This document shows, piece after piece, positions 21,050 to 43,498 of a stretch of 64,000 bases of DNA. The DNA is from Agroathelia rolfsii (taxonomy: Eukaryota; Basidiomycota; Agaricomycetes; Amylocorticiales; Amylocorticiaceae), in assembly GCA_018343915.1 (NCBI GenBank), contig JABRWF010000001.1, positions 5,084,001 through 5,148,000 on the forward strand, read 5' to 3'. The notes beneath the pieces were generated by a model, which did no database searches, was not told where the DNA came from, and was given only the letters and a program-made list of their open reading frames with translations. The first letter of the stretch is position 1; every line of letters begins with the position of its first letter. A program made the translations under genes and the position numbers.

Positions 21050-21055
21050 AATATC
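21050..21055. repeat. Left target-site duplication AATATC
   Basis: Six-base direct repeat AATATC, matched exactly at 43,493-43,498, bracketing the terminal inverted repeats. Confidence 0.8.
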
Positions 21056-21079
21056 TATCCGCGGCCGTTGTGGACAAAA
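21056..21079 (+). repeat. Left terminal inverted repeat
   Basis: Starts TATCCGCGGCC and ends GTGGACAAAA at 21,079. Pairs with 43,469-43,492 at 19 of 24 positions. Just inside, a second inverted TTTGTCC copy gives a small palindrome. Confidence 0.75.
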
Positions 21080-22064
21080 TACAATTTGTCCTTTGATATA
21101 CATATATATATATATATATACATATATACGTGTATATATACATATATATATATATATATACATATATACGTGTATATATACATATATATACATATATATA
21201 TATATATTGCATTCATTAGTAGTTGGTAAAGGTTATATATACGAAACTATGTACTTGTTTGCAAGAATATATAGAAATATACAGAAATATATATATATAT
21301 ATATATATTATATACAGGCACCATCTCGGCTTAGGCTAAATGTTTAGCATTTGGCCCAGAAGATTGGCCTCATCCGGTGAGGAACGGCCCAAGCATATGT
21401 TTTGGACAAAATAGCCGGTAGGGGTGGCCAAGCATGTGTTTGGGACGGAATTTAGTTTAGCCATGCATAGATGATACCAAAATGCGTTGAGCCGAGTAGT
21501 GAGGCCTTGATAAGGCGCTGTTGAGGGCGGACTTTTGTTTGCAGACTTTGGTATTTTGTCTTTTATTACACATCCCCTCCTTGCCTAGGGAAACAACACG
21601 CCATAATCAAAGCGCTATAAGATGCATCCTACCTCTTCTACTTCAAGCTTCCCAGATCTTGCATTTTCCTGTTTGCATGAGGTCTGCTGCAGTTAGCCCT
21701 GTACCTCCTATTGCCGGATGGCCAACGAGGCCACTTATGTATGTAGCTCCAACACTGCTTAGTTTCTTAGAGTAAAGCAAAGTAGAAATATAGCTTTAAA
21801 TTCATTTTCAATCTTCTTTTAAATGGTGAAGGCGCATTTTACTAAGACCAACTCTCTATAGATTGCCACCCATGCTAAAGACATTTGCATTTGCTATCAT
21901 ACGTATGACCAGCACGTTCTAGCTGCTACGCCTAGTCTTCCTGCCAGAGGACCGTCTCCTGGAAAGCCAGGCATTTGCCTGGGTTATCTGCCGGTATACA
22001 GTCTCTTATTCTAAGTATAAGAATGCTGGCTTAACAATCTCCAAAGGCATTCTGGGATTTACCT
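21080..22064. repeat. Left subterminal AT-rich zone and spacer
   Basis: Sequence 21,093-21,310 is mostly (TA)n with GAAATATACA units, like the right end. From 21,311 to 22,064 there is unique sequence in which I recognise no gene; it may hold the promoter or first exon of the HECT-like gene. Confidence 0.6.
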
Positions 22065-25000
22065 ATGCAAAGCAGCATTCAGGTTTCAGCCAACTCTCTC
22101 CTATATTCCTGTATTTGTGGAGATCCAAAGCACACCCACCCACTTATTGGTCTAGCTCAGGGCGCACCAGCTTTTAGCTCTACCAGCCCTCCTCCTAGTG
22201 TACATTCCTCTTCAAGTGCACAGCCAGGCCTCCCTACATTATTTGGGCCAACTTCTTTTGGGCAACGGGCAGCTACCTCTTCCGTATTTACTGGCCAGTT
22301 CACATTCAATAATCCTATACAACAAGCCCCAAACCCTCTAGGTGGAGATGCACGTCGTCGTCAAGAGGCAGCTCGTCACGCAGACCCAGCTTGCCTATCC
22401 TCAAGAGCAAGCTCATCAAGGCGTAGATTTCTAGCTGCACCAGGTCGAATGCCTCCCCCTACTTCCATAGAGCTAGTTCTTCTTCCAATCAAGGTTTTTC
22501 TTCATCTATTATGTATCTCCCTTCATTTAATTTTTATTCTGTTATCAGCTATCAGATATTAGCAGCATGCCAAATGGATTAGAGGCCTCATGCAAAGCTC
22601 ACCTATGGCAAGAAACATATGACATCTTTCAATCTGAAGGTCTCATCTTCCGCTTGGATGTGCGACCATCTTCAAGAGATGATTCTATTTGGCCTGAGAT
22701 AGAGGCTTTAATCAAACAAGAGCTTCCTAACTGCGGATTCCATGTTATAGGCCCTGGGTCAAATTGGCTATCCTCTGAGTTGGTTAGCATATGGGATGGC
22801 CCATTTTGTTTTGCAAAAGTTGGTGTAAAACCTGGCCGCAGAAGCAATCCAGAGTCTGAGGCTGATAGGCTGCGCTTTACACCTAACAAGGCTATCCTAA
22901 GCCCAGCCTATGTATTATTGAAAAAGCTGAAACAAACCAAGCTAGTCCATCCACTAGAGCCTCAGACGCTCATTGTTTTTATGGGTTTGTACTAAATTTC
23001 ATTATCTTACTATTATTTTACTGATAGATTTACCTAGGAATGCGCTATGAGGACCTATCTCGTAGTCAATCGCACTTTATAGATGGTCAAGACGATGCTC
23101 GCCTACCTGGTTTACATGGATGCTATGGTAGATTGGTATACTGTAGGATTGAAGACTTGAATGTAGAGGTTGAGCACAACCCATCAAGAATTGCATGTAG
23201 AACCACCTGCCCCAGGCCATCTTCTACATCTACTGACCCTCCTAATACTATTGGTACTGTACGAGAGCAGTCTTCTTCAGTAAGTCTTCTGTTTTCTCAA
23301 GTTTTATACCCTATTTAAAGCATAAAAATTGTGTTCTAGATGGCATTAGGTGCCCCTTCGCCCAAGCGAACTTTGCTTGAGGTACTTATTTTATTTTTAC
23401 TTCAAAGTTAACTTTTTTGGATTTTTATCAGTGTTGCTTAGCTGCCTAGCCAGGAAGACACTTTCTTTGGGTTTACCAACGTTCAAGGTGCACTAATAGC
23501 TAGTGCACCTTCCAATACTCCCAGCAGGAGTCCTGTCTTTTCAGACATAGCTCTTTCTAGGGCTGAGTCTCCTACGCCTTTGCTACCCACCCCTATAGCT
23601 CGGCCAAACCCAAACCCCGCTGATCTCTTTGGCTTACGTGAGCTTAGGAAGCTGCTTACTATTTCCAGCCATCACCTTTCCCCAACAATTAGTCCTTACT
23701 TACCTGATATTAACCTGGGTGCTTGCACAGAAGAAATTCTTGGTCAAGGAGTTGTATGGCTACTAGAGTATATGGCAGCCTCGGAGCTAGAGCAGCCACT
23801 TCCTACTGAGCCTCCGGAAGGCGTCATCTGTAAATCCTATCCAACTTTGCAGGCCTCATTCTTTAGAATACCTTGTGAAATCAATATGTAAGTTCCTACT
23901 TTCTTAATACTATTTCAAAGCTAACTTTTTTTAGTATTAATGAGCTAGATGAGCACAACAGCATTATTATTAGCACTGGAGATGGGGTCCGTAGAGCAGC
24001 CTTTCTTCAAGCGCAAACACTCGAGGTCTTAACAGCTAGGTGGAGCTGCACAAATGATGCCACCTATATACCAGCCTTTAACTCTTTTGACAATAAAGAG
24101 GCTGAGTTGAAATGGAATGCAGCTGGAAAGCTTCTTGCTTTATTCCTAACACTACTATACGAGGCCCCATTGATGGTGTCGCCACTAGTTGTCCTTGCCT
24201 TACTAGCAGAGGATATAGGAGATGCATTAGTTAGTACGCCTCAAGAGTTTCTTCAGATCTTGGCTCCAGATATTGCTTGTCGTATGGCTCCTTGGTTTGA
24301 TGTCCAGCCTGATGCTCCTCTTGAGCATTCCCTAACAAGCCCTTTGGCTCAGTTTCTTATGACAGAGTTCCAGTGGCATGTATGAGATTTTTAAATTATT
24401 CCAACCATAAGTAACTAACATTAGGTCTTTAGAGGCCTCTTAGCCGTCTTTGTCAACCTTCAGTTGATGGCCAGTACAAGCTCTCTAAAGCTGAACATCA
24501 GGAGCGTACGCTAGCCATCTATGCCAAAGTTGCATTCAATGATGAGACCTTCTTTGAGCGTAAGGGTTGGCATAGCTTTAGGGCTGGGTTCAACTCCCAA
24601 CTGCCTTCAGGCAGAGGCATACGACAGGTATGCACTAGTTTCTTAGACACCAGCATTCTATCAGAGCTCAATAGTTTTACTAGGCACTATATAGGAGCTC
24701 AGCTATGCTGCATTCTAAAGGGCCTGCCCGCACTGTGCTGAGTTTGTATTGTCGGCAGGTCTCTACTTCTGAAGACGTTAGAGACGTAGCCAACCACATC
24801 CAGGTCCATGCTGCCCCAAGCTTCCATTTTCCAATCAGCACAGAAAGCGAACAGTGCTACATGGAGGATGCACTCAAGTATAACTTTAACAATGGCAGCC
24901 CTAAATTCGATAATAGCTCTCAAGATGGAAGGAGGAATAGGGCAGTCTACCATGGGTTTTGTCGTGCCATCCAGGATTACATTCTGGGTGTTGGGCCACC

Positions 25001-25462
25001 AAAGAGTTTGCCAGAGTCTCCAGTACTTGAGCTTCCAAGCAGCTTTCCTAGTACAACCCTAGAAACACTTTGCGCAACTCTAATGCTTATAGCTCTATCA
25101 TCATCCCCAAATCATCCAAGCAAATCAAATTGGAATCTCAAAGTAAGCCCAAGCTGCTTAATCTATACTTTGCTCTGACTTCATTATCTACAGTGGACGC
25201 TCATTAGCCCTACATCGGTAAGGCTTTTTTTTTTTGAAAACCCTTTACTAGGCTAACTTCAAATATACAGTCAGATGCAATCGAGGCCTCATCTATTCAT
25301 ACCTGCTTTTCATCAGCCAAGATATATGCAGACTCTTTTTTCCAGCGCCTTGTTGCTCTTCACCTTGTGTCCAGAAGCAATGATCAGCTGACATCAACGG
25401 CGTTTGAGATTTGGCTTCACAACCTACTTGTAGTAAACGCGTCTTCTTTTAATCAGGCGTAG
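22065..25462 (+). CDS. HECT-like E3 ubiquitin ligase candidate, multi-exon
   Basis: Possible product: a C-terminal HECT-like E3 that would pass ubiquitin from E2 to a substrate through a Cys. Joined by eye from about nine exons with 45-70 bp introns (examples: 22,984-23,025; 23,281-23,340). The N-terminus is Ser/Pro/Gln-rich. A conserved-looking block follows (SEGLIFRLDVRPSS, 22,630-22,980). The HECT-like part begins near 24,540 (WHSFRAGFNSQLPSG) and includes HAAPSFHFPIS (near 24,810). The last exon holds IHTCFSSAK, matching the HECT HTCF active-site motif (Cys codon 25,304-25,306). At least one in-frame stop near 24,430 depends on the chosen splice. Start uncertain. Family call from memory. 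Confidence 0.5.
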
Positions 25463-26479
25463 CACTCTTATGTAAAGAAAATATGCCTTACATGTATTTT
25501 GCTTGTCTTTCATTAAAGCTTAGTCATCCTGCAAAAGTTTTGCCAGCTTGCCTTTTTTTTGTCCTAGCAACTGTTTGTCCCAAATGCAACTACAGTTAAG
25601 CCTGCCAATAGTAGTTTGGCTGAAATCATGGTTTAGCCAAAACAGCTGTTCAGCTAAAATCATTGTTCAGCTGAAATAATTATTTGGCTAAAATCACGGT
25701 TCAGCCAAACTAATAGTTCAGCTGAAATTGCAGTTCAGCCCAACTAATAGTTCAGCTGAAATCGCAGTTCAGCCAAACTAATAGTTCAGCTGAAATCGCA
25801 GTTCAGCCAAACTAATAGTTCAGCTGAAATCGCAGTTCAGCCAAACTAATAGTTCAGCTGAAATCGCAGTTCAGCCCAACTAATAGTTCAGCTGAAATCG
25901 CAGTTTAGCCAAAATCATTGTTTGGTTGAAATTGTGATTCGGCCAGAATCACCCAGCTTGTCTGCCCCCCGCCCCCCCAGGAGCATCTGCAGTACCGCCC
26001 GTCTGCGCGGCAAAGGCCTAACCTGAACAGCATATGTTTATAATTAAATAGAAGCAAATCTTCTAGCACCGCAAGCTTTTTATTCAGCCATTTAGAACTT
26101 TATGCTTGCAATCCTTCTGACAATCAAAGGGTTTATTGAGGGGAAACTTAAAGGCAACACTAAGCGCTAGTCCATTATTATACACGCTTGGAATCTCTAG
26201 AAAGGATGAAGATTAAATATAACAAGTGTATAGCCATTATATAAGAGAATCAAATAAAAATAAACATGCTGCACTAATGAGAGCAAAGGAAATATACACC
26301 TGCAATAAAAAACAGTGGGTAAAAAGAAAGGTAGAGCAGACGGCAAGCATAGCAGCAGCGACGCATAGGCGTGGATCAGCAGAGATCACCAGCATCTTTG
26401 CGTGTACGCAAGAAAAAGGATTAAAGTATGAATCAAAGGCGCCAAAGAGGATGCTGCTGTGATATACGCCCTGCAAGCT
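25463..26479. repeat. Spacer with 34-bp minisatellite
   Basis: Six 34-bp tandem units lie at 25,707-25,910, each holding TAATAGTTCAGCTGAA and GCAGTTCAGCC. Degenerate half-units flank them (25,620-25,706 and 25,911-25,960). The motif TTCAGC(C/T)(G/A)AA recurs elsewhere in this transposon. Sequence 25,960-26,479 has no recognised gene and separates the 3' ends of two convergent genes. Confidence 0.85.
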
Positions 26480-29400
26480 TTAATTTCTTCTTGGCTTCCT
26501 CCTCTTTCTTGGCTCAGCTGCAGGGGGCAGTTCATCTTCAGAGAGTTGGCCTGAAACAGAAGCTTTTGGCTGTATTTCCCTATAACAAATCATGAGATGC
26601 CATTATTCTTGAGACTAGCTTGAATAAATCCTTGCTTCTGACCTTGGCACTGCTTGCTGCTTTCGACCTTTTGGCTGGCTGGGCTGGCCCAATTTTTTTA
26701 GCTGCTTTTCGACCAAATGCGTGATCTCTTCAAGGTCAACCAGCTCTTGTACACCCAGCTCTGAAAGGCGTAAATGCATTGCTGCCACCTCGTCATCTGC
26801 CTCTGTCTCCATTGCCTTGATAGCCTCTCTCTCTAGCAGACCAATGGCAAACAGACAGCGCTGGGCATGCCGGTATGGCAGATTAGAAAAGCTGCGAACC
26901 TCCTCCTGTATCACGCTGCGAAGATGATTGTGCACCTCTAGCTGGTGAAGGGCAGCTAACCCCTCATCTAACACGCTCTGCGGGGTTCTCCAATCAAGCC
27001 AATCAGGAAGCTGGCCTGTAGGCTGCCCTGAGTGATTGGGCCAATTCTTGCGGTTATATAGTCAGAAAGTAAGTACCAGTAAGGCTCTCAGAGAAACAAG
27101 ATGATTTCTCACCGGTGGGGCGCATCCATTCATCAGGCTCACAGCTGATGCAAATACAGACATTGAAGTTTTTCCAGCTAAGAAAGCTAGCTGGGATGCT
27201 GCCTGGTTGTCAGGGTCTATGCTGTCAATGCTCATAGAGGCGTGGCCATGGTCTGAGTCTTCTGACGGAGCTATGGGTCGCTTACTGCCGCGAGGACGCT
27301 TGCCAAGAAGAGAAAGCTCTGATTTGGGATTTGCGTCTTCATCCGAGCTCTTATCAACCGGCATATCTGGAAACGCAAAGTTAGCAACCTACAATAAAAA
27401 AGCATCTGCATCACAATATACACACCGTCATCCTTCTTGGTTGGAGGCGTTGGCGTCCTACTTGGATGCGCAGTGCCCTCTGCTGCCTGGAGCTCCTGAA
27501 TTGTCTTTTCCATTGCCGCCTTTGCTATTGCAAGGCGTTTTCTCAGGCCAGCCTCTTTTTTCTGGGCCTTAGAGCTGGATGAAGCCTCCAGTCCAAAAGC
27601 ATTCCATGCATCTTCAGCTTCCCAGAACTTTTCTGCTTCAGCCTGTAAGCGGGCTCTTAACTCATCCGGAGTAAGAGGGGTGGCAGAGACCGCTGGTTTG
27701 GCCAGAACAGGGGTGGGGGCAGAGGGGGGAGCGCGGCTTGGCAGCGGCTGGCGATTGCGGCTTTTACCCTTCTGCTGCATAGCAGGTTGTGGCGTTGGCT
27801 CCTCAGCAGCTTCTGAAACAGCCTTCTGCAGCTCGCTCTCGTCAGCTTCAGAGCCAGCGCCCGGTGCCTGCGCTTTGCCCTTGCGCCGTACTGCAGGTCT
27901 AGACTGCATAGCCGGATCCGTATGCTCTGGCACCGCCTCCTCAAAAGCAGCCTGGTAAGTACACGCATCTTCGTCAGATGATAAATCAAGGTCCTTCTTG
28001 TTGAATATGTGCTGCATGTACTTATGTCTTGAGCTTCCATGACCTGCGCCTTGTTCAAAGAAGTCGATGCTATGCCCCGGAGCCCTTGAGCGAGGCCCAA
28101 CCCACTCAATCTCTTCCTTTTTTCCCAATAGCTCTCTATAAAATGCGACAATTTGCTCAGTTTCTTGACGCGTCAGCTTGGTGGGATCCTTCATAGGCAC
28201 TGCTTCTGGCCAGGACTGCGCTGACAGGATTTCTCCTGAGCTGTCTTGGAGCCCTGCCCAGGGCACAGATGCCTTTAAGTTATTACAAAAGGTTTCTAAG
28301 GAAATTGATATCTCAGCTACTTAGTATATAAGGATGCACTTTATATTGCTTACGGTATGATATTGTTAAAATTCTTCTTATTGTATACTTGAGAAATTCT
28401 AACCCATCTGAGGTTTTCAGAGCGTCCCCGGCAGCCCAAGGTTCCGGGAAGATTGGCTGCCCACGCCGATCGGGCAAAACAGCAGGCCAGTCCTCCCATC
28501 TATTCTCTTTTTTTGCTGGCCCCCTTTTTGGCGCCTTCCCCTTCTTCTTAGATGCCTGACGGGCCGGCGCTTTGGGGGCTGGTGGCAACGCCTCTGTGCT
28601 TGGAGCTGGACTGCATATGGTGGGAGGTATTGGGGGGGTTGCAGGCAGTAGAGGAGCCGCAGGCACTAGGCTTGGATATGAGGATACCGCTGCAGGCGCC
28701 TCGCCTGCAGTTGGCTCCACCACACCTTGTGAAATAAGCATTACAAGCAATACATCAGCTAACAATTCTGCCTTACTTAGCTGCTCGCCAATATACTGAG
28801 TGATATCTTCATATTTAAGGTGTTCGAGCACCGGTTTGTACATCGTCATGAATCCCTCTCCGCTTCGAGGATGAGGCTCCTGACTGACGGCTTAAAGAGT
28901 TAAGATACAGCTATGTATAAATGTAGCAATGCACGCACCATAGAATTTCAGGCAACTGAGAATCGCCATCTTTTGTTCCAACAAAAAGCAAACCGTGAGC
29001 TCCAAAGCGATCCTGAAGTATACGGGAAACAGATTGCAGGTAGCCCTGTAGCTCAGCAGCAGCAAGCCTAAGGTTGTTTTTTTTGTTAATTGATCTGAGT
29101 GTAGCGCATTGATGTTAGGCTAGCTTACCTCTGTTGCTCTTGCTGGGTAAAGCCAGAAGACTGCATGGAGTTCACCCACCGCACGCCCTCCTGTTTCCTT
29201 TCTGCATTTTCAGGCTGGTCCAGCTCCTCCAGCATCTGGTTCACAACAGCCGCAAAGTGGTGCCGGAAGGTAGGATCGCCGAACTTGACATCCTGCTCAG
29301 AGCGAGTGCGTATTCTAGCCAATACATCCTCGCTCCGGCAAACTTCAATCCATTGAGAAAGGCCATAGCGGCTGGTCTCTTTCTCACTGGACAGCGCGGC

Positions 29401-29743
29401 CTCCTTGGCGTGGCTATCAAACCATTGGGCTAGCGCCTATGGTACAAGATTCAATCAAGACAATAAGTATTATGCAATACGGCTTAGCTCTTACCTGTTC
29501 TTGGTCGGGACAAAGGCCCCAATTTTTTTTCTTGGCCTCAGCAGTCATGGCGGCCATTGTGGCACGGGTGATTTGCATCCTCTCAACACTGCTGCCAGCT
29601 ACATTGTACTCTTTCTGCCTTTCATCAACAAGGGCCTTGAAAGTCATGTACCAGGATGGGAACATTTTAAGTAATTTCAATTGAAAGCTTGGAGGGGATT
29701 GAAGCTGATGCGGCTGAGGGTGAGATGGACAGATGGGATGCAA
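26480..29743 (-). CDS. Unrecognised multi-exon transposon cargo protein
   Basis: Function unknown. Reading by eye: start at 29,743 or, more likely, 29,665 (MFPSWYMTFKALVDERQKEY). Exon 2 has ALAQWFDSHAKEAALSS and WIEVCRSEDVLARIRTR. Exon 3 has YLQSVSRILQDRFGAHG near 29,030. A long exon (27,430-28,270) has LTRQETEQIVAFYRELLG and an Ala/Pro/Glu-rich linker. The last exons contain a helical segment (SVLDEGLAALHQLEVH) and end in a basic KRRKPRRN, a plausible nuclear signal. Introns such as 29,437-29,494 start with GTAAG. It resembles large hypothetical proteins common in Agaricomycete genomes; no catalytic motif seen. It may be divergently transcribed with the gene at 29,899. Confidence 0.6.
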
Positions 29744-29898
29744 AGATGCGGAAGCCTCAAGTTTGGCTTAAATCATGTGACTGCTCAGCGCAGCATCTGT
29801 CCTCATGGCAAACAGGCTACTCTGCAGTCTGGCCATAGCAGTTGCAGTTTGCATTCCAGCTTCTAACTTGTCTTAAACTCCTCTAGCTTTACTCCAAC

Positions 29899-32219
29899 AT
29901 GTCTCAAAGCAAACAAAGCCTGTCAAACAAAGGCAAGGCCAAGGATTCAGGTAAGTTTAGGGCTCTATCTACTCTGCATCCGTGTGCTTAGCTACACACG
30001 TTCTCTTTAACAGGCCGCCTCACTCGCCAGAGATCTCAGGAGCAGACAAGCAGCTCTGCTCCAAGTAGAGGCCGCAACCCCCACCCCACGATCTCAGCGG
30101 AGGAGCCTGCAGGGTCTGAAGTAGGCGTGGATGTGAGTTCAGCCGAACTCCGCAGGATGAACGAAACCCTAGCCTCTCTTGGCATTAAGGTGAGATCTTT
30201 TTTAGGGGCATAGAGGGATTTCTAGAGCTATAGCTTTTTTCAGCGTCCAGCGCCTTCCTCAGAGCAGGAAACTACAGCTTCTATGGGCATTGAGGTAAGA
30301 TTTTTTTTTTAGGAGCGTAGAGCAGCGCCTTAAGCAACGGCTCTTTTCAGCACCCAGCGCCTCCCCCTGGGCAAGAAGTATGTAGCCTTTTTCATTATTG
30401 CACTGGCCTTTACTTTTATCTTTTGCTAATGCCGCCATTATGAAGCCAGCTTCATCTACCACAATAGACGCAGATGTAAGACAGATCACCTCAAGCTTGG
30501 CCAGGCCTTGCCCTTCTAACGCATGCCCCAATTGATTTAGAGTTCACTCAGAGTAAAGTTGCTGCCAGGTAAGATTCTGTATAACAGCTTGCCCCGCGGC
30601 CATGATCAGGTATGCTGCCTTCGGCTCTACTGCCTCTCTCCTTTATTGCTAAGGTTTAAAATCTTAGGGATGTCATAAATGCGGGGATCAAGCCCAGGTT
30701 GCCTGCGACTTCTGCCCTCGAAGCGTGTGCCTTAACTGCTACAAAATACCCAGAAAGTCCAACCTAAATAAGCTTGCGTTTGCATGTATCTACTGCTTCA
30801 ACAAGGCATACTATTCCTCTCTTGATAAGGATGGGAAGCAATATACTGAAGGATCCAAGCCTCCTTACATGGTGAGTTTTCTCTATCACTTAACACAGCC
30901 AGCCTCACGTATTGCCCTAGGGGCTCTATAAACCTGAACTTCCAAAAACGCCTGGCCGACGCCTCCAATACTCATTAATTCCCTTGCTAAAACCTGCGTT
31001 TACAAAACCCTTAGATGTACAAGGCTCTTTTGTTGGCCCTCCTCGGCAGCGTTTCTTGAGTTCAACCATTGCTGTCATCAATTTGCATCTATTTACATTT
31101 ACTCCATTGGCCATGGATACTTCGCCTGGCGCTGTGGCTCGCAGGTACCTCGCAGGATGGTATGAAAATATCTATGAAGGTGGCACCCTGCCAACATTTC
31201 TAAGTGAAGACATATCATTCAACATTAAAGATAACGATGCTTTGGAGGGCCATCAAAAGGTTTTGGATGGGCTTAGGTTAAAGTTATGGGGGTAAATTTT
31301 CTTATTTTCTTTACTGTATGGCAAAGTATTAAATGCTGACCTTCTCTAGCCTCCGCCCTGAACAAATTCTAGTAGTTCTTACAACACACTCGGACACCAC
31401 CACCGGCGAACTGAATGTCGAGAAGAATGGGGCTCTTCCACCTGAGGAGGTAGGCAGTTGCATTGCTGGGCTGTATTATTCAAACCGCAGCTTATCCGCT
31501 TGGCATAGGCGCTTCAAACCATCCTTGGACCCCTTGCTGAGGAAATCAAAATGTGTAGCAGCACGTATCTCTGGCTAATAGCATGCGGGCAAGTTATTAG
31601 CTAGGAAGAGTCCCGCACATCTCTGCTCCGGGGCATAACACAGTGAGTTTTAGTCAGACCAATTCTCTTACTGCTGCTGATGAAAAGGCCTCGACTTAGT
31701 GTTGGAATCCAGCATGTTATCGGCTTTACAGCTCCTACCCTGCTAACACTTTTCCCCCAGAACATGATGCTGACATTCTGCTATAAGGTTCTGATTAGCC
31801 GTTTCCCCTTGAAGGACTGCATAGAGGATATCTGTATTTCGTCTGTAACAATGCCACAGCACTCCTCCATCTTTTACGCTTCGCCCGATGATCCTTTGGG
31901 CTCTATATATGCTTGGCATAACCCGCTCCATCGTCCATTTAGAGAGAGCACACTAGCCCAATGTCCTTTGTGCAAGCGCGTTGATTCGTTTGCTGCGCGG
32001 CTTGAAGGGCGGGGGTTAGAAGCTGCCAAGGCTGGTGCGCTTCATGAGCAAGCCGTCGTCCTTCAATGCCAGAATCCTGAATGCGAATGGCGCAAAGTGA
32101 GGCAGCGGCCTATGGAGGTTAAAGAAGTCAAAGGATCCAGCCTTAAAGGGTGTTGGGTTACATACCATCTGCCAGAGCCTGCGCCAGGGCAAAAGGGTCC
32201 AGCAGAAGCTTCAAGTTAA
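29899..32219 (+). pseudogene. Zinc-finger protein with possible caspase/CHAT-like core
   Basis: Exon 1 starts MSQSKQSLSNKGKAKDS at 29,899; several short exons carry near-repeats (ASLGIK, then ASMGIE). An exon at 30,668-30,869 encodes a Cys/His cluster (CHKCGDQAQVACDFCPRSVC, later CIYC), a PHD-like finger. The central region has VVLTTHSDTTTGEL (His codon 31,387-31,389) and, after an intron, LWLIACGQ (Cys codon 31,584-31,586). Strand-His then strand-Cys spacing recalls the caspase/CHAT (clan CD) fold; this is inference. The C-terminus has a zinc-ribbon-like CPLCKR and CQNPEC. A TAG at 31,602-31,604 appears in frame, so this copy may be broken. Function unknown. Confidence 0.5.
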
Positions 32220-33420
32220 AATTTTGTAGCTGTATCTAGAGTTTTTGGTAATGTAACAGTGTGTATTCAGTAGGTAGCGGCTTGTGTTCTTTTTGGAGTG
32301 ATTTTGTAAGAGTTGCAAAATGCCCCCAAACAGCAGCGGTTTCACACTAGATCCTTCAGCCTTTCAGCTGAAGCGGTTAGTTTGGCCAAGCTCTAGGTGG
32401 GCGCAGGACCCTGCAGCCTTTTGGCAAAAACAGTTGGTTCAGCTAAACTGTAGGCTGGTGGCAGATCTTTGGCCAAAGCAGCTGGTTCAGCTGAGCTATG
32501 GCCTAGTCCTGGTCTTCCGTTGAAGTGGCTGGTTTGTCTAATCCCTTGGCTGACCTAGGATTGCATCTACTGTTTGGCTGAACTATGGGCCAATGCTAGA
32601 TCTCTAGCTGTAGGCCTGGGTCTTAGCACGCTTATTCAACCTCATTTCCAACTTGATTTCATGCAATTACATTATAAAAAGTTTAGGACAATATAGTAAT
32701 CTACAGTACTACATTGCATGTGGAGCAGGTGCTATTTGTAATGCTGTTGAGGCTTAGTTATAATAGAATCATAGTATAGGTGATTTTATTCTACTCACCC
32801 AAGGTAAAGGGGTGCATGAGCGGGCAGGGTCTATTAACATATAAAGCAGCAAATAGATGCTATAGCTTGTGCAGCTTAGATAAAAAATAGAGGGTGTAAT
32901 TACTGTAGATGCATATGTACCTTGATAGTCAAAGGGATGGCTACTATTGCATCAGGACATATGTTGGTCTGAGATGAGTAGGCTGGACATACCTTTGCTT
33001 ACTGTCCTGTACGAAGGCAACAGTGGAGATAAGTGTTGGAATTTATATACACCAGTAAGGTGTGTAGGTGGGACCAGCATATTAGGATACATGTTTGTCT
33101 AGAATAAGTTAGATAGACATACCTGGGCCCTTGATTTCCACTGATGCAATGCAGGAGATAGATACTATAGGTTGAAGCATGCTAGTAAGGTGTGCAAGCA
33201 GACCATGGGTTTTCATCAATATATCAGAGTGTAATCATCCACAATAAATTAGATGGACATACTTGAGCCCTTATTGCATACCAATGCAACATAAAAGATA
33301 AGTGCTTTCAATCAATGCACGCCAGTAGAGCATGTGCACAGACTGTGGATTAACACCAATATATCAGAATGTCCATGTTTCCAGAATAAATTAAATAAAC
33401 ATACCTAAGGCTTTGTTTAA
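32220..33420. repeat. Non-coding spacer with about 140-bp degenerate repeats
   Basis: Four diverged tandem units recur about every 130-143 bp between about 32,900 and 33,415, anchored on GACATACC (32,986; 33,116; 33,256; about 33,399). Sequence 32,320-32,640 holds scattered CAGCTGAA/GGCTGAA motifs. No gene recognised. Confidence 0.6.
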
Positions 33421-33429
33421 CTTTTGCAG

Positions 33430-33840
33430 CTATCCAGCTGTGTTCACACCTGCAAGGCAATGTTAAGGCTAAGTGCTATTGAGCACGCTCTGAATTCACA
33501 CAGCCGCTTGGCCACATTCTTGAGATCCAGACGAATGCTAAAGGCAGCTAAGCGCTATCCAGCGCATCACCAACCCTCATGGCTATCCAGCCGCGTCCAT
33601 GCTTGTAAGACAAGGTTAGGGAGGACTAAGCGCCATCCGATGCGTCGTCCATCCCCGTGGCTATCCTGCCGCGCCCTTGAGATCCAGATGGACGCTGAGG
33701 GAAACTAAGCACCATCCGGTGCACCGTTGACCCTCGTGGCTATCCAGCCATGTCCACACCTGCAAAGCGACGTTAAGGAAGACTAAGCGCTATCCAACGC
33801 GTCATCTGTCCCCACAACCATCCGGTCGCGCCCTGCCTAG
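33430..33840. repeat. 79-bp minisatellite, five units
   Basis: The anchor TAAGCGCTATCC (variants) recurs at 33,470, 33,549, 33,627, 33,706 and 33,784, a 78-79 bp period. Units also share GGCTATCCAGCC. GC-rich against its surroundings, and not coding in any consistent frame. Confidence 0.85.
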
Positions 33841-34639
33841 GTGAGGCCTGGAGGCCATGCCCGCCCCTAGAGGAGATGGACGTGGTTGAAGAAAAAGAGC
33901 AGGGCTGCGGCATTTGAAAATTGGTTGATGGTGGCAGTGCAGCTAGTCTGTGATGCTGCGTTATGGTTCAGTAGGACGGCAGGTGGGAAAGAAAAAAAAG
34001 AGAGGAATCAGCAGTGGATCGATGCTGTCACTGCTTAGTCAAAACTATACAGTTCTTTTGGACTCAAACTTGTCTTCCATATAAATAGTATTTGTGTGTA
34101 TTGAGAAGAGGATGAGCTCTTTGGAAAATTGCAGCCTTCGCTTGGCGTCCGATACTCTGTGACTATTCGTAACCGTCACATAGTCAAATCATGTAACTCT
34201 GACGGCATGGCAGATGGCGCAGCACTGGCTAGGCTTTAGCCAATAGCCTGAACCAGTTTGTGCAGCAGGGAATTTCAAACAGCATTGAGTCAATTAACGG
34301 AAAATAAGCAGCCTGATTGGCTAAGACCTGCTTACCAATTAGCTAAGGACAGCCGGTGGCTTGGCTAGCTTATGCAGAACTGTTCCTTTACAACATTAGA
34401 GAGCAAGAGAGAGCGCGGACAAACCAGAGGAGTTGAAAAAGAGCAAGGGGGTAAGAGCATGCGGGAGAGTGCGCAAGAAAATGAGAACAGCTGAAGGCAT
34501 TTTGCCAGCTCTTGGGCTAGCCGCTTATGCCGTTGAACAGTAGCAGCTCTGCCGCTGCATCTGCGTTTGCGTTGGCTCTGCAGCACGCTCCATTTTCAGC
34601 CAGTCCCAGCCGCACTGCTTCAGCTGAGCAAAGCCATGC
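33841..34639. other. Non-coding spacer
   Basis: No gene recognised. Contains scattered short GGCT/AGCC-rich motifs, and nothing else that I can support. Confidence 0.4.
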
Positions 34640-34807
34640 GGTTTCAGCCGAACATTGTCCTGCGGTTTCAGTCAAACTTAGTCACGTGGTTTCAGCCAAA
34701 CATGGTCATGTGGTTTCAGCCGAACATTGTCCTGCGGTTTCAGTCGAACTCAGTCACATGGTTTCAGCCGAACATGGTCATGTGGTTTCAGCCGAACATA
34801 GCTATGT
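34640..34807. repeat. 24-bp minisatellite, seven units
   Basis: Seven units, each starting GGTTTCAGCC or GGTTTCAGTC followed by (G/A)AAC, at 34,640-34,807. Units 1-3 and 4-6 match in order, giving a 72-bp higher-order repeat. The same TTCAGCCGAA core is found in the 34-bp array and near the transposon's right end. Confidence 0.9.
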
Positions 34808-35066
34808 AGCTCCAGCTAAATGTAATTGCAGCACCCTGTGTGAGGCGCTGGCCTATTTCAATTGCTTAGGCTGCTCGCCGCCCTATTTTCAGTGCACGAG
34901 AGTCATAGATATCTCTCTCTCCCTGGCTATTGTGCGTACTTGTCTCATGTCCCTGCAGCCGTCTTTTGTGTATCTTGTAGCTATATAGAGTGCAGCTACC
35001 TATTTATAAAAAGGCTGCCCTTCAAGCCATCTCACACATCCCAGCAAACAGCTGCCTGAGCTTATA

Positions 35067-35808
35067 TGTCATGAGTTGAACTTTTGGCTTTTCTACTCTC
35101 TTGATTTTTCCCTGGTTTTTCTATATTTTTCCTGATTTTATTTTATTTTATATGATTTTCTTTGATTTTGTGCATTGAATGTTTTGCTTACTGTACTTGC
35201 ATTTCTTTTCTGATCATTGAATCCTTTTAGAGGGACCTTAGGGTAGTATTCCTTTACCTTATTTTCTACTCTGATTATCTTATCTCATCTTTGATCTTAT
35301 TGAATATGCTTTTTACTTTACATGTTTGCATTTCTCCTCTTTGTGGCTGATGTGGCTACACTTTCATTCTCCTCTTCAATATTAGGACTCAGCTACTGTA
35401 CAGTTCATGTATGTACTTAAGGCTGGCTGTCCTAGAGAATGCTTCTCTAGTTCAGACCACTCTGTTCACCACTCAGTGTTCTTTGCTCAATCTACTCTTT
35501 CACTTTCTTATGTCTTGGTGATGATGATGCTGGCTTGTCTCTGCTTATGTTCTATGTCTGTATTGTCAAGAGAGGCTGTGTACTCTAATAATCAGTGAGG
35601 GATAGGGTATCTCAATAGTCTGCTCTGTTAGGGACACAGGTATGTAAAGTCCAATGATGTTTGGCATTTGTTAGCCCTTGCCAGGGGTATTCCCACCATG
35701 TTTATTTTCTCAGTTCCCCACCACCTTTTCCATTGTCTCCTACCCCCCCCTCTCTCTTTTTATGGTTGTTTGGAGTGGTTGGTCATGGCCTCTGGCCATG
35801 CCCTGACA
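35067..35808 (+). mobile_element. Solo LTR family F inside the giant transposon, TSD TTATA
   Basis: Begins TGTCATGAGTTGAAC and ends ATGCCCTGACA, 742 bp, flanked by perfect TTATA repeats (35,062-35,066 and 35,809-35,813). The first bases resemble family A LTRs, but the body is different. Weak reading frames within are ignored. It shows that the giant transposon was already in place when this LTR element inserted. Confidence 0.85.
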
Positions 35809-37068
35809 TTATACCCGGTTCTGATGACAAGCAAAAACGCATCCATTATATAAATTCATGCTGCAACACAATTTTTTTTTAGTCTTAAAGCATCATCAAA
35901 GGGAGATTGCTTCGCCTATATGCTTGGCACCTTCCTGCCTACAACACAAGGCTCCATGCAAGCATGATGCGCTCACACACATAACACACCATAACCCTTG
36001 CCCGCACCCACGCACAAGCTCGCCAACAAACTGCTCTAATTTTTCTTGTTGTAATACACCTGACTCATCAAAGAATTTGGTGTATGGCTTCGATCCGTGC
36101 ATCTTGCCCTTGCCCAGCAGCAATTTGCCGTTACTGGCGGAACGGATGTAGTTCAGGGAGACTTCATACCCAGGCGGCTTTGTTTTCTTTAAGGGCTGTG
36201 TCCTCAAGGACACAGTCAGGCGTTTGGAGATGATCTAGTGAGCTAATAGAAGGTAACACAGGTGAGGTGAGGATGAGGACAAAGGCTACAACTTATTGTC
36301 ATATGAGTCACTTACATGTTTTGATACTGTCTTTTGTTTTCCTGTGAAGATGATATCGCCTTCAATAAAGTATGCATGTAACGTTGCAGGTCCGGTCCTC
36401 CTGCTTCTGCCCTGACGCTTACAAGCCCCTGCTGGCCTTGTTTGCCTCATAATTTAGTTTTAATAAGCATTCGTAGCCAAGCGCACCCCTTTTTTTACAG
36501 GCGCAAACCGCCAACCCCAGTGGAAAGCTACTCTGCCAAAATCTGACAAAATCCACCCAGATATCTACATTTCTGGTTATATAATAATTATCTTTAAATT
36601 TAAATGTATAGTCAATCAAATTTTATTTTATCCATACTATACAGAAGGTGTGTTGTAACATCAAGTTTGAAGGCAGAGAAGTTCTGTAGAATGATGCAAG
36701 TTGATAATGCAAAAGATTGATTATACTGAAATACACCAAAATACAGAAATTCATACAGCTGCATATCTGTGAGACCAACAAATTGCTTATATTAGAATTA
36801 ATGCCCTTTTGATATTAAGAACATGCAAAAACTTTTTTCTTTGATGCTGGCTAGGACGGCAGCGCAGCTCAGGCTAATGGCTTCAGCCTATAAACGGCAT
36901 AGCCAGCATGGCGCTAGCCGCGGGGTCTTAGCTGAGCATGGCCGCGCGGCTTCAGCCCAATAAGTTAGGCTGCCTATATGCTCAGGCACATGGGCTCCAC
37001 AAGAAACCCCTGCCTGCCTATGCCTTTTCCAGCTATCTTCTTGGCAACCACCTTCTCTTAAAAAAATC
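35809..37068. other. Spacer with one possible minus-strand exon
   Basis: A minus-strand frame at about 35,990-36,213 encodes SASNGKLLLGKGKMHGSKPY and FFDESGVLQQEKLEQFVGEL. It looks protein-like but has no recognised family and no clear start. The rest (36,240-37,068) has no gene that I can support. GGCTTCAGCC motifs recur at 36,870-36,960. Confidence 0.3.
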
Positions 37069-38756
37069 ATGCCTGCCTATAGATCTTCCCGAAAGCGCTC
37101 CAGGGTGTCCAAGCTAGGCTCAAGGAAAGGCAGCGCTAGACCAGATGAAGAGTCTAGAAATGGATCTATCAGAGAGGCTACGCATGTGAGCAAGCCTGCT
37201 GCAATTTAAGGGCTAAGGGGTTTAGGAATTGTTTTTACAGGGGCCTCAAACACTTCAGGAGTATATAGAGGCCTGGCTCAAAAATGCAGTAGATATGCTC
37301 ACTCGCCAGTACATGGGGCCTGGCAAAACGCTTTCATCCAAGTTTGAATTGCTTTGCAAGAACATTTGGCATGCTTTCTCTATTTTATATCTTGATGCAA
37401 AGGCTAATCTACCGGCGGGCGTGTTGCAGTCTAGATGCTCGAGCTCACAGACAAGAACTCTACAATAAAATCTCGGCAGCTGAACTATCGGCCCATCCAA
37501 GCGAAGGCGAGTGGAGCCTGGTTGCTCTGACGATCGCCGCTGCCCTGCTAAATCCAGGTCAGCTATGCAGCTTAGTAGCCTTACCCTTGAGCCTTATTTA
37601 ATGCTTTTATTATATAGTAACAGTGCCTATTGATGTTTCTCGATTATCTTATCAAGTGAAGAACTTCAAGGCGGCGGCTGATGGGACGCTGTCTCAGCAG
37701 GAGAAATTGTTTGCTAAAAATGCATATAGTAAATTAGAGCCAGTCGGGGACATTCAAGATCCTACAGTTCTTGTTGACAAGCACGGCTATATCCTGTGTT
37801 TTGCATTGCCAGGCATAATACACCCCAAATGCATGGTAATGGCTAACAACACTCCTCTCTGTTGCTTATGTGGCTAAAAAACAGGCTCTTTTCTCCTAGA
37901 ACAATTTTAATAATGGTGCATCCAGTATCTCTAGTTTACTCCGGCAGTCTCGTATGGGTGGCAAATCAAAATCTTCATGGCGAGCATCTGGCTTCCGGGT
38001 TTCTGACAAAAATGCTATTGAAGCTGGAAATCTTGATCTCTCTCCTGGATGGTTTCAGCAGGGCCATAAGGTAAAGTATTATACACTATCCAGTAGCTTG
38101 TTAAGTTAAAAGAGCTTTTTTTTTTTTAGAAACCAGACAGCTCCCTACACTCTTCACCTGCTATTAATTCCGAGGCTGCTGTAAGATTTTTCACCAATAT
38201 CCATGGAGCAGAAAGCTTGGCCGAAGCTACTGCAAGCCTTGTTATGCCACTACAGTATGCTGCCTGTAGGCTTGTTTTGGCCGAGCTGCGTGAAGAGGGG
38301 GTAGTATCAGGCAACCATCCAAATAGACTCCTTTGGAGGATGCCTTTCAACGGGTTAGGTTTGATTTCTAATCGCATCACCCCATCTCACCATGACAACT
38401 CCGGTGCCAAGCCTGTAATGGATCTTCTGGTTGGTGCTGGAACAATGACAGAAGCGTACCTGAGTCTGTATCTGGCTTTTTTATTTATTGAAGAATGCCA
38501 TTAACCTCTATTGGCAGGCTTGGATGAACTGGGAGGAAGAATCAAGTATCTCCCCAGAACTATAGTTTCTATACTTGGGTCAATATTTAGACACAGCTGC
38601 ACTGATTGGAAGGGGGGTGACCGACTTTGCTATGCCTACTATATAAAGGATGAGGTCCTTGCTAAATTTGCTATAAAATGCCCAGACTTCATGCAGATTG
38701 GTAGCATACAGTCTCTGCCTAGCCATTACCTTAAACTATTGCTAGCTAAACAATGA
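37069..38756 (+). CDS. TET/JBP-family 2-oxoglutarate/Fe(II) dioxygenase (candidate 5mC oxidase)
   Basis: TET/JBP enzymes oxidise 5-methyl groups of cytosine or thymine in DNA. Fungal members are known as cargo of DNA transposons. Here a basic start (MPAYRSSRKRSRVSK) is followed by about seven exons. The C-terminal double-stranded beta-helix shows SNRITPSHHDNSG with the HxD iron ligands (His codon 38,388-38,390, Asp codon 38,394-38,396), VMDLLVGAGT, then after an intron IKYLPRTIVSILGSIFRHSC (distal His 38,592-38,594) and GDRLCYAYYIKDEV (Arg 38,622-38,624, likely 2-oxoglutarate binding). All catalytic ligands are present. One stop near 37,880 is avoided or not depending on the splice chosen between 37,830 and 37,915, so integrity is not certain. 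Confidence 0.75.
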
Positions 38757-38987
38757 GACACATGTTTGTAATAGCTTAGCTGCTTTGATTAAATTTTCTA
38801 GAATAGGCGGAGCTAGCAACAAGAGTTTGGCTGAACTTAGGCTAAGGCATAGCAACAGGCCTTGGCTTTGCGGCTTCTTCCTTGCTGCACATTGCAAACA
38901 TCTAACTAGACAGCATCTTTACTAACTGTGCTTGCCCTTAAACATTCTTTAATATATTTTATGGATGCTAGCTTTGATACAATTGCT
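38757..38987. other. Spacer between convergent cargo genes
   Basis: No gene seen; short GGCTGAA motifs near 38,830. Confidence 0.4.
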
Positions 38988-40846
38988 CTACATAATTTCC
39001 CCAATCTGGGCAGCCATAAGTCGCTTCATAGCCTCCCATTTTATAGACCCTGCAATACATTCTAACTGCGATGCACCTTCTGTAGGCATTGGTAGCAATT
39101 TGCTTGTACTGTTTGTTTGGATGGTAAGGATGATGCTCCTAGCTCGGAATATTTGGTCACAGCTGGCCCTAACTTGTGCTGCCTTATTTGGGTCAATGTT
39201 ACTTGACTCAACAAGAGGCACTAGGTAGTCAGTGTTAAGGATGAAGTCAGCCATCTTCTTTATGTTGGTTTTCCACTGCTGGTAGGTGTTGTAGCTTATG
39301 CCCATCCAATGTGAAACATCCTGAATTGTGAGATTATAACCTCCATTAATCTCTTTAGAGGTAAAGCGTCCATCTATACAAGGTAAGCCCAAATTCAATG
39401 CTGCCCTTTCAACAAACAAAACCTGCAGCCAGTTCTTATACAGAGTTCCATATGGCCTAGTCCTAGTTTGAATCCAATGCTGGCGGAGATTGGCTATATG
39501 GTCCTGCATCCAGTCAAGACAAGGCTGATTTATCTTAGCCAGTAGGCGGTCAACAGATGGCTCAGATCCAGAAGCATTGGCCTGGGGAGCATTTTGAGCT
39601 TGCTGGCTAGCATTTATATGTAACCTGGCAGCAGAGCTTTGTTGAATAAGAAGATAGAATGCCTTGAGCATAGATGAGAATGTGCCAATAAGTAAGTATA
39701 TAGCTTGCTTACATCATAATAAATATACAAGCTAAAAACTGGGCTTCCTAATGGCAGCTGGTGCAGATCAAGGAGTTGAGAGAGCTGGGGTGATGTTGCA
39801 GAGTGAGGAAGGATGGAATAGTCTAGAAAGGAGGATAGAGGCCCAAGAGAGGTGAATCCATAGTCTATACGCTTGTACTGCTCATGTACATCAATTGGTG
39901 CAGCAGAAATGCCTAGAGTAGCTGCTATAACTCCAGACATAAGCTGCTGCCACAGCTCCTGTAAATCAGCGGAGGCATTGAATTGAGGTTGGCATAAGTT
40001 CTGAACTGAAATCCCAGTGGCAGCCTGAGAAACAGAGCATTCAAAGTGAAATACTCTTGTTTCCTTGATTTTGTTGAAATCCAAGCCAAGAACAAGAAGG
40101 GCTAGAAATTGTAAGCCGACTTCCAAGGCATTGCTAGCAGACACTGAAACCTCACCAGAAAGATTAGGTGAGCTAGACGCAGCCTGAGTGCTAGTAGCGC
40201 TCTCATATAAAGCTGTGGATGCAATGAATCTCTGCCTTAGATAGAGTATTCAAGATGCTTTACTTACAAGGGTTTTGTAGAGATGAGATAGGCTGACCTA
40301 AAATAAGTTCAGCTAGCTCTAGAGGGTCCATTATAGGAGAGGATGGGATAGCTGTAGCTTTTAGTTTGGATGCACAAAGGGTTAGAATAACTTGAAGCTC
40401 TTACTAGCATCTTCAGTCCAGGACAAACTAGGAGATGGGGCAAAAAGCGGTGAAGGAGGGGTACGTATCCCCCTTGCAACCTCTTCATAGCTAATCTCTG
40501 TAACTGAGAACGTAGGTGAATCCTGATGGGGAGAAGGCGGGGTAGCTGATGGAGCTCTAGAAATTGCCTGATGATCAAACCCTTCATGGCCAAGAGTTGC
40601 TTCAATATTCAGATGGGTTTGCTGATGAGCATTGCTATCTATACGAGGTTATGTTAGCAATCAAAGCTAAATGCTACAATTAAAGACTATATAAGACTTA
40701 CTGGAGCGTTGAGGAGGGGGTCCTGTCCTCCTCTCAGTTAAGTTGGCCAAACTATTCCTTTCAGCATGGGTCCTGCCTGCATATGATATCTCTGCATCGG
40801 CAGGAATAGGAGCCTGGCGAGATCTAGTGCTGCGACGGGGAAGCAT
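38988..40846 (-). CDS. Unrecognised cargo protein, about five exons
   Basis: Function unknown. Starts MLPRRSTRSRQAPIPADAEI at 40,846. Exon 2 (about 40,410-40,640) is Ser/Pro-rich (SATPPSPHQDSPTFSVTEIS). A long exon (39,720-40,190) includes VGLQFLALLVLGLDFNKIKE. The final exon (38,988-39,660) includes GYNLTIQDVSHWMGISYNTY and QQWKTNIKKMADFILNTDYL, which could be a helix-turn-helix-like DNA-contact region (inference). It lies next to the transposase and in the same orientation, so a role in transposition is possible. No stop was seen in the joined frame. Confidence 0.55.
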
Positions 40847-41033
40847 ATTGGATATGGTAGGAGAAAACTTAGGCTGGGGCTTGATGCTAACTACTGAACT
40901 GGCAGTTGCCGCTTATAATAGCACAGCTCCATAGTGCCTTATAGTTTGCCGAGGGTTTTAAAACTTCCGTAAAGTTATAGTAGCAGGGAAATACAATTAA
41001 CAGTGCATACAACAATTGTAAGCTAAACATAGA

Positions 41034-43000
41034 ATCTTATCCAGAGGTATTAAACCTAGCACTACAGAATTCTAATACATCTACCCAGACCTGCAGGCAA
41101 GCTTCCATTTGCTGCAAAGCTATAGCAGGATGCTCTGCTAAGTATACACGTAGAGTCTCTTCATGTTCAGAAGATAGTGGTGAATTCGGAGGATTGCAAG
41201 GTACATGGGATAAATCCGCCGGTCGGCCGACGCTTGCAATAAATGGATTAGGCCGATCCATCTGGCTGGCGTTCTCCCCCCAAAAATGTCCCATAAGGGC
41301 ACTATTGTTGTACTCCTCCCAGTGTTGGAATAGCAATCCGTAGCTATGGAGTATGTGTGACGTAGTCACAGTCACGCGTAGCGTGACATAGTATTTAGAG
41401 TAGCCGCGCATTGTAGTTTGTACCGCATCTGTTTGTCGGCGTACCGTGACCAAGTACAATGACAAGCAGAATAATATCTTGCTTTTTATATTGATTTTGG
41501 CTGGCTGGCTCGCTCGACAAAATAACACCCAGTCTACCCCAAAATGAGCCAGGTCCTGAATGTAGTTGTCTTGTTCCAGATTCTGCAGTCCACGAGGTCC
41601 ATCAAGGTACATGCTATAAAAAAACAATTCCCTTGGAGACTTATCCTCCTGGTGGGTCAGCCAAATTTTGTGGTTGTTCCATGCCTCTGCCCAGTCAAGA
41701 GCATCGCCATGAACAGCATTGAGAAAGATATAATGAATAAGCCATATGTGTGTAGGGTTTAAATGGTCAAGGCCATAGTAAGCTTCCAGTAGTTCAAAGA
41801 ATGACTTCCATTTTCCGCCAAATCCTTGCGTCACATCAACCCAAAGTCTTTCAATGCGTATATTATGGACAGACCTAGAAGAACTAAGAATGCAAGGGCT
41901 AAAATAAAGAAAGGAATGACGAACTTTCCCCAGATATAAGAGCCCCTATTTAAACCATGATGAGCCTCCATCTACTCTGCTACTTGAACGTTCTCTGTGC
42001 CATGGTCGCCATGCACTTGTGAAGGAACTCCATGAACTGATACTGCCTCAAGGAATACAGAAAGGACTGTGGCAGCTTGATTATTGTTGGAAACCCGGAT
42101 GCCAGTCACTAGCCGAGACTTGCCATCAACAAAAGCATGTATAACCATCTTCCAGCAAATAAGACCATGCTGGCCATCGTAATGCCATAGTGAATTTGCA
42201 CCTGGAACCTGGTAAGGCTGGCGTTGTATTGCTTGAGGTCTAAAAGCGCGCGCAGGGCCACAAACTCGTGTATATGCCTCAACGGCCCTTTGGCGGGTGA
42301 TGCAGATATTCATGCGACGTAAAGCTCCCCATAGCAGGCCTCGGCCAAAACCAGGAAACTGATTAAGAATATTGGCTATAAGAGTGTCCAGTTCACCATT
42401 TGATATCTCTGGTAGGCTAGGCTCCAGGTTAGGCATTCGACGAGGCGGTCTACCCTCAGAATATTCAAAGAGAGGTGGCTGAACCGCACGGAGCCCAACA
42501 TCTTGGGCCCGACGGCGGAGTGTCCTGGTAGAGACCCTTGCAACCTTAGCCATCTGAACCATGCTACCCCGGCCAAATCCCAGTCCAGTTTGCATAAAAG
42601 AAGGATCGATATCTATGCGAGGTCTGCCAGGCAAGCCACTGCTTGCCTTCCATGACACAGCAAGGGAAGGGCCGTTATAGGGGTCAATGGACTTTGTTCA
42701 TGCGTTGTTAAGTTCTATAAGCATCTGCTCTAGACTAGTACACAATTCTGCATACAAATTGGCAGGAAAGGCATCTCTATGCTGGCGTACTTGTTAATAT
42801 GGTTGTTAAAGCGCTGATTATGCACCTATGCTACTTACTTGTTCGGCTGAAACGCGAAAGCGCAAGACTTCATTGCGCTTCTCAGTAAGACGGCCTTCAT
42901 CACCTAGCTGGGTTCTTAGGGCAACTTGGACTGTCTGGCTTAGTGACCGGAAGCTAGATGCAAAGTTTGCAAGGCGGTCAGTAGGGTTGAGTAGCGACAT
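41034..43000 (-). pseudogene. DDE integrase-core transposase with two nonsense codons
   Basis: N-terminal exon 42,818-43,000 (LLNPTDRLANFASSFRSLSQ). Then a helix-turn-helix-like segment (MVQMAKVARVSTRTLRRRAQ) after GLPGRPRIDID. The retroviral-integrase-like core has SLWHYDGQHGLICWKMVIHA (Asp 42,176-42,178), VHGDHGTENV (Asp 42,005-42,007) and, after an intron, SVHNIRIERLWVDVT (Glu 41,850-41,852). TGA at 42,698-42,700 and TAG at 41,972-41,974 break the frame; the TAG stands where related proteins as I recall them have Trp. Sequence 41,340-41,500 looks like an in-frame insertion with short palindromes. It probably cannot move the element unless supplied elsewhere. Confidence 0.75.
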
Positions 43001-43468
43001 GCCAGTAGCTTAACAATAGTAGAGCAATAAGTCCTAGTGTAGGCTTCACAAGATTCTGCTTGGCTGCATATGCGTGCATGTAATGCCAAGAAATACTACA
43101 GTGAAACAGCCGAGGTATGCGAGTTCAGCCGAAATCAGATCTCACATTAGATCTAGCATCAGATTAGGCCATTAGCCGAGCTGTTGCAATTGTGTGCCTG
43201 TATACAGGAATATATATATATTCCTATATACGCAATATGCAATGTAGGTGCATTATATAGGAATATATATATATTCCTATATACACACATCTAAGCAACG
43301 CTTGACAAATATACAGAAATATATAGAAATATACAGAAATATACAGAAATATACAGAAATATACAGAAATATACAGATATATATATACTGTATATAAGAA
43401 TATATAGAATATATGTATATATACATATATATACGTATATATATATATATTGACAATATTATACAGGG
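43001..43468. repeat. Right subterminal zone: motif, hairpins, GAAATATACA array
   Basis: GTTCAGCCGAA occurs near 43,125. Two perfect AT palindromes with the core AGGAATATATATATATTCCT lie near 43,205-43,228 and 43,258-43,281. GAAATATACA is repeated about six times at 43,313-43,375, followed by (TA)n to the terminal repeat. The left end shares the GAAATATACA and (TA)n elements. Confidence 0.75.
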
Positions 43469-43492
43469 TTTTGTCCACTTTGGACGAGGATA
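43469..43492 (-). repeat. Right terminal inverted repeat
   Basis: Starts TTTTGTCCAC and ends GAGGATA, followed by AATATC at 43,493-43,498. Complementary to 21,056-21,079 at 19 of 24 positions. Confidence 0.75.
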
Positions 43493-43498
43493 AATATC
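43493..43498. repeat. Right target-site duplication AATATC
   Basis: Exact copy of 21,050-21,055. Confidence 0.8.

Follow-up and report, generated by a model that had tools for sequence, protein, structure and literature searches.

What is the 22.4-kb stretch at positions 21056..43492 of a 64-kb window from the fungus Agroathelia rolfsii, to which kind of mobile DNA does it belong, and what do the genes inside it contribute? The window, by which we mean the whole stretch of DNA analysed, is C1:5084001-5148000 (contig JABRWF010000001.1 of assembly GCA_018343915.1) in a genome of 37.67 Mb on 8 contigs. A first-pass annotation made from the letters alone had described a DNA transposon with intact ends and a chromatin/ubiquitin-type cargo. 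We conclude, with a probability of roughly 0.8, that the stretch is a 22.4-kb cut-and-paste transposon of the IS3EU type, with a DD34E transposase, a CcTET-like TET dioxygenase, and four other multi-exon genes in which no domain is recognised. Genes were modelled with a simple exon finder made for this analysis, and all models are approximate.

Shared ends, further copies, and uninterrupted target sites

The element is present in three long copies at different sites, with shared ends, target site duplications of 6-7 bp, and uninterrupted versions of the target sites. In the window, its borders and duplication are as first annotated, with 24-bp imperfect terminal inverted repeats that agree at 19 of 24 positions:

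21050..21055, strand not applicable: left target site duplication, AATATC
21056..21079, forward strand: left terminal inverted repeat, starting TATCC, TATCCGCGGCCGTTGTGGACAAAA
43469..43492, reverse strand: right terminal inverted repeat, TATCCTCGTCCAAAGTGGACAAAA (inverted)
43493..43498, strand not applicable: right target site duplication, AATATC

A degenerate pattern derived from both ends occurs at only two sites in the 64-kb window, those ends themselves, compared with a mean of 0.01 in shuffles. Because the pattern was built from these same two ends, the scan is partly circular, and other copies are the stronger evidence. The first-pass annotation had proposed searching for genomic copies with the same repeats, 6-bp duplications, and cargo, and for empty sites matching the joined flanks, and the genome holds both. 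Two other long copies are bounded by the same ends, one on C1 (22,047 bp, 7-bp duplication GGTAATG) and one on C8 (28,431 bp, 6-bp duplication CGGGCC), as are three short end-only derivatives of 760, 715, and 719 bp with duplications GTGCCAT, GACGTC, and GTAATA, respectively, which supports the view of a DNA transposon with intact ends. Of the six copies having both ends and a duplication, four thus have one of 6 bp and two have one of 7 bp. All three long copies terminate in TATCC..GGATA, and a few short copies read TATCT at one end. Pairwise, the long copies are 96.44, 97.95, and 97.46% identical over about 21.2 kb. The C8 copy owes most of its additional length to a nested Gypsy retrotransposon of ~7.2 kb, which interrupts the modelled start of gene E (see below), and the window copy has a stretch of its own:

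35062..35808, strand not applicable: ~740-bp stretch absent from the C1 and C8 copies, with approximate borders, representing an insertion here or a deletion there

The C1 copy is inserted in a Gypsy element, and its joined flanks match 43 listed places in the genome, of which 40 are continuous across the junction at 84-92% identity; with only 40 candidates scored out of 588, this count is a lower bound. The list does not include the flanks of the C1 copy itself. A Gypsy copy inside the window carries GGTAATG once and uninterrupted. For the window copy, the joined flanks gave 13 matches: two are its own flanks, eight are one-sided, one (C1:5176540-5176975) spans the junction over positions 53-500 at 77% identity, and two short ones span it at 72-73%.

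An integrase-core transposase

The transposase gene lies near the right end of the element, and its reading frame is damaged in the window copy:

41037..43000, reverse strand: transposase gene with PF24764 integrase core, DD34E, interrupted by an in-frame stop (41972-41974) and, in its last exon, by an insertion
41323..41528, strand not applicable: ~205-bp insertion in a transposase exon, flanked by CCCAGT and absent from the C1, C7, and C8 copies

The product matches the Pfam families PF24764 (E 5.8e-60) and rve (E 4.5e-8), in agreement with the integrase-core DDE transposase first proposed, and its catalytic residues are spaced D-56-D-34-E. We found 287 relatives, 120 of them listed; among the 120 aligned, the catalytic D, D, and E are kept in 116, 119, and 116, the remainder being mostly gaps. 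The named relatives, among those listed and read, belong to species that we take to be basidiomycetes. A search of the genome with a transposase exon returned four close copies (the window; C8, 96%; C7, 91%; C1:1126220, 90%), together with a single, divergent locus on C6. The ~205-bp repeat inserted in the window copy has a second place at C1:1049970-1050176, 98.6% identical, and is possibly a small non-autonomous element.

The IS3EU superfamily is defined by TA..TA ends and usually 6-bp duplications, and IS3EU and GingerRoot elements use an integrase-related DDE transposase (PMC10045372). The element described here has TA..TA termini, 6-7-bp duplications, and an integrase-type DDE transposase, a likeness of features rather than of tree position, and it most likely belongs to IS3EU. 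It is not a KDZ element, since its transposase is PF24764 and not the KDZ transposase PF18758. A search of the genome for PF18758 gave 0 matches, but control genomes were equally silent, so genome-wide absence is not established by it.

A CcTET-like dioxygenase

37069..38756, forward strand: gene D, TET/JBP dioxygenase, CcTET-like, with HxD motif and distal His; the exons modelled in the window copy are free of stops

Gene D matches the solved fungal enzyme CcTET at E about 6e-14, and the alignment keeps the HxD motif, the distal His, and the positions of Gly331 and Asp337, so that the TET/JBP dioxygenase of the first-pass annotation stands, with its iron ligands and two substrate residues in place. 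According to the main text of PMC12730594, the positions of Gly331 and Asp337 in CcTET are linked to activity on N6-methyladenine and 5-methylcytosine. HxE instead of HxD would mark a PE-type TET. The HxD motif reads HHD in the window and C1 copies and HRD in the C8 copy. On these motifs (HxD, distal His, Gly331, and Asp337), rather than on a TET tree, gene D appears to be a CcTET-like enzyme of AG type.

Against PF12851, gene D scores E 1.8e-7, below the curated cut-off. The same family has matches at three places in the genome, all within the three long copies and none above the cut-off. Among 8000 scored candidates, we found one relative, the metagenome protein P0121 (E 1.7e-24, 37% identity over 53% of the query), and scans of viral contigs with exons of the TET gene, the transposase, and gene A confirmed no relatives.

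Four further genes without a convincing domain

22065..25142, forward strand: gene A, multi-exon, no recognised domain, first annotated as HECT-like; 3' end uncertain
26480..29665, reverse strand: gene B, multi-exon, 912-aa model with a long low-complexity stretch, no recognised domain
30668..32219, forward strand: gene C, multi-exon, weak N-terminal PHD/C5HCH-like finger, first annotated as caspase-like
38988..40846, reverse strand: gene E, multi-exon, weak helix-turn-helix-like match

One exon each of the TET gene, gene A, and gene E was searched genome-wide, and each is present only in the three long copies (for gene A, the exon at 23879-24385); therefore, these genes travel with the element. 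The finger of gene C scores E 0.0009 for the exon alone, below the curated cut-off, and 0.017 in a longer model, and the helix-turn-helix match of gene E scores 0.036 and 0.091, respectively. Nothing in Rfam reaches the gathering score within the element.

Neither of the two remaining domain labels from the first pass was borne out. Gene A has no Pfam match up to E 10, no homologue among 8000 scored candidates, and no useful match to a solved structure. The HECT family PF00632 has 24 exon matches genome-wide at six host loci (on C1, C2, C4, C5, C6, and C7), none of them in an element copy. When compared with a profile built from three host HECT domains, gene A scored 16.5 and eight shuffles of it reached up to 16.0, a weak test with so few sequences. 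We accordingly dropped the HECT E3 ligase label for gene A, whose resemblance to HECT may be distant or spurious. A structure predicted by AlphaFold for a single gene A exon, with a mean predicted local distance difference test score of 43, was too poor to use. A caspase-like identity of gene C was likewise discarded, as neither Pfam nor further searches gave a match. With the HECT and caspase labels lacking matches, the ubiquitin half of the proposed cargo is unsupported, whereas the chromatin half holds for TET and weakly for the gene C finger.

Relation to known TET-carrying transposons

Kojima 2025 (PMC12730594) reports TET genes on 11 DNA transposon lineages, IS3EU included, so the first-pass statement that KDZ elements are the carriers of the known fungal TET/JBP genes has been superseded. 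As described in its main text, the IS3EU families of rust fungi carry a PU-type TET located between an alpha-kinase gene and the transposase and have TAYGG ends and repeats over 30 bp, and one further TET-carrying IS3EU family, in Tuber indicum, has a PE-type TET. Like these families, the element in A. rolfsii has TA..TA ends and 6-bp duplications and combines an integrase-type transposase with a TET/JBP gene on a single DNA transposon. It differs from them in its CcTET-like TET with HxD, in its 24-bp imperfect repeats and TATCC ends, in its greater length of 22 kb, in its four unrecognised genes, and in showing no alpha-kinase among the Pfam matches of the scanned models and exons, which are approximate and leave out one end of gene B.

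In Agaricomycotina, the same main text lists Kyakuja, Zisupton, EnSpm, Plavaka, and Helitron2 as TET carriers, with AG-type TET only on Kyakuja and Zisupton. Like gene D, the AG-type enzymes of these two are CcTET-like dioxygenases that have HxD and keep the positions of Gly331 and Asp337. However, the transposase here is PF24764 and not KDZ, and neither the CA..TG ends, 7-bp duplications, and missing inverted repeats of Kyakuja nor the 8-bp duplications of Zisupton resemble those of the element.

Thus, the element is most likely a variant of an already reported pairing, with a CcTET-like TET, a greater length, and no alpha-kinase detected; it would be a new variant rather than a new kind, as Kojima 2025 already reports TET on IS3EU. 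Neither a TET-carrying IS3EU in Agaricomycotina nor an AG-type TET on IS3EU was found in the main text of PMC12730594 or in a wider literature search. The first-pass suggestion of an undescribed pairing therefore survives in part: TET on IS3EU is known from rusts and Tuber, an AG-type TET on IS3EU is absent from that main text, and the HECT and caspase components fall away. The novelty of the variant depends on tree support for both the IS3EU and the AG assignment.

Decay of the copies

In every one of the four close transposase copies, a matched exon is broken by an in-frame stop; the C6 locus also has stops, which may fall in introns. Stops and selection in the cargo were counted on five models, those of A, C, and TET being without their last exons. 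The window copy has no stop in any of the five, the C1 copy has 2 in A, 7 in B, 0 in C, 2 in TET, and 1 in E, and the C8 copy has a single one, in A. Most of the changes seen in a single copy are C-to-T or G-to-A, namely 225 of 326 in the window, 392 of 430 in C1, and 68 of 109 in C8; there being no outgroup, those private to the window include changes on the branch common to the C1 and C8 copies. Transitions outnumber transversions by 719:37, 414:22, and 520:20 between the long copies, compared with 681:169 in 16 mutually overlapping alignments of other, older repeats (90-93% identity) from the same genome. For the three copies taken together, ~39% of TCG sites are changed, 19-30% of other NCG, 8-12% of NCA, and 0.6-3.6% of NCC and NCT.

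In these copies of a TET-carrying element, TCG is the most affected triplet, followed by other CpG and then CpA. A CpG mutation resembling repeat-induced point mutation is on record in the Agaricomycete Rhizoctonia solani AG8 (PMC4014442), and the main text of PMC12730594 states that hypermutation was not detected among Agaricomycotina.

The element was recently mobile and is now decaying, and the copies in the assembly look immobilised because of the stop in each close transposase copy and the C-to-T decay at CpG and CpA. The genome also has methyltransferase-like loci (9 exon matches to PF00145), which makes a substrate for TET plausible.

Proposed mechanism and alternative explanations

Most likely, the transposase would bind the TATCC terminal repeats and excise the element and, from established knowledge of such enzymes, would then join it to target cuts staggered by 6-7 bp. 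By analogy with CcTET chemistry and following the argument of Kojima, TET would most likely oxidise 5-methylcytosine on the element, which would allow element genes to be expressed and thereby counter methylation-based silencing. A wider proposal, which we put forward tentatively and at somewhat below even odds, is that an AG-type TET of the kind reported on Kyakuja and Zisupton moved onto IS3EU in a mushroom-lineage fungus, that it forms with the four unrecognised genes a multi-gene counter-silencing module, and that the CpG and CpA decay records the host defence against which this module was built.

Several observations weigh against an IS3EU-type transposon with a CcTET-like cargo gene. Two of the target duplications are 7 bp long instead of 6. 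A further pair of ends (L031), 3,334 bp apart, has no matching duplication; the C7 copy retains one end only in the stretch fetched and is broken up by other repeats; two left ends (L032 and L034) have no right end within the fetched stretches; and at L033 no end was found at up to 3 changes in the fetched stretch. Unlike the TAYGG ends and repeats over 30 bp of the rust families in PMC12730594, the ends here read TATCC and the repeats are imperfect and 24 bp long. The IS3EU assignment is drawn from ends, duplications, and domain rather than from a tree with Repbase IS3EU/GingerRoot, the AG-type assignment of gene D is drawn from motifs, and TET matches PF12851 only under the curated cut-off, both in the gene model and genome-wide. 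Finally, the cargo shows no sign of purifying selection after the divergence of the copies, so that any cargo function in this host is putative.

This last point bears on the possibility that TET and genes A, B, C, and E were picked up in a single capture and ride along as passengers, contributing nothing to the life of the element, for which only the transposase would matter. Non-synonymous and synonymous counts fit the expectation without selection in all five cargo models, with context weights set by hand (for TET, 25/15 observed and 26.1/13.4 expected), cargo exons diverge like the rest of the element (0.0399 and 0.0414 per site), and the short end-only derivatives show the cargo to be dispensable in cis. 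However, decay of the copies after insertion would leave this pattern irrespective of what their genes did before, so that neutrality neither supports nor excludes a function during spread; the window copy retains five cargo models free of stops; and TET has been captured by several transposon lineages (PMC12730594), which argues for its use. We regard a purely passive cargo as unlikely but deserving of serious attention.

Less probable still is membership of the element in a different integrase-related group, such as a Polinton-like one or an undescribed superfamily. Polintons also make 6-bp duplications (PMC10045372), and the feature-based assignment leaves room for such a relationship; on the other side, the Pfam matches of the scanned gene models include no polymerase or capsid domain, the repeats are short at 24 bp, and the TA..TA ends are those of IS3EU (PMC10045372). 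A likeness of the ends that arose by chance in AT-rich sequence, with ordinary host genes at a fixed place between them, has next to no probability: AT-rich simple repeats do adjoin both ends, but we reject a chance origin because the same ends recur, with a different duplication each time, on two further long copies and three short ones, and uninterrupted copies of the targets exist. An IS3EU-type transposon with a CcTET-like TET is the reading that we retain.

Surrounding window and genome

Outside the element, the window contains retrotransposon and host-type genes:

2906-7279 and 10567-16479, reverse strand: Gypsy-type retrotransposon open reading frames, assigned by eye from the list of open reading frames
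48125-49336 (forward strand) and 54053-55355 (reverse strand): two very similar genes for kinases like cyclin-dependent kinases, in opposite orientation, from the same list; kinase domain confirmed in the first
57093-57455, 59415-59786, and 61304-61756, forward strand: three consecutive short-chain dehydrogenase-like exons; domain confirmed in the first

One scanned Gypsy-type open reading frame of the window has RNase H, H2C2, and integrase-core domains. Genome-wide, the HECT exon matches come in contig pairs (C1/C2, C4/C5, and C6/C7), as do part of the DNA-methylase matches, and two HECT pairs (L047/L049 and L048/L050) share 92.8 and 93.1% identity across 1.1 kb, introns included. Possibly, two diverged haplotypes or subgenomes are present in the assembly.

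Implications

If the assignments are correct, the capture of TET by IS3EU would extend to another fungal group, and a CcTET-like enzyme, CcTET being a fungal TET with solved structures, would sit on a transposon class for which the main text of PMC12730594 gives only other TET types. One genome holds several copies of the element, uninterrupted target sites, and a methylation-type mutation record, and all the PF12851 genes detected in it lie on the element. With this combination in a single genome, it could be tested there whether a transposon-borne TET counters silencing.

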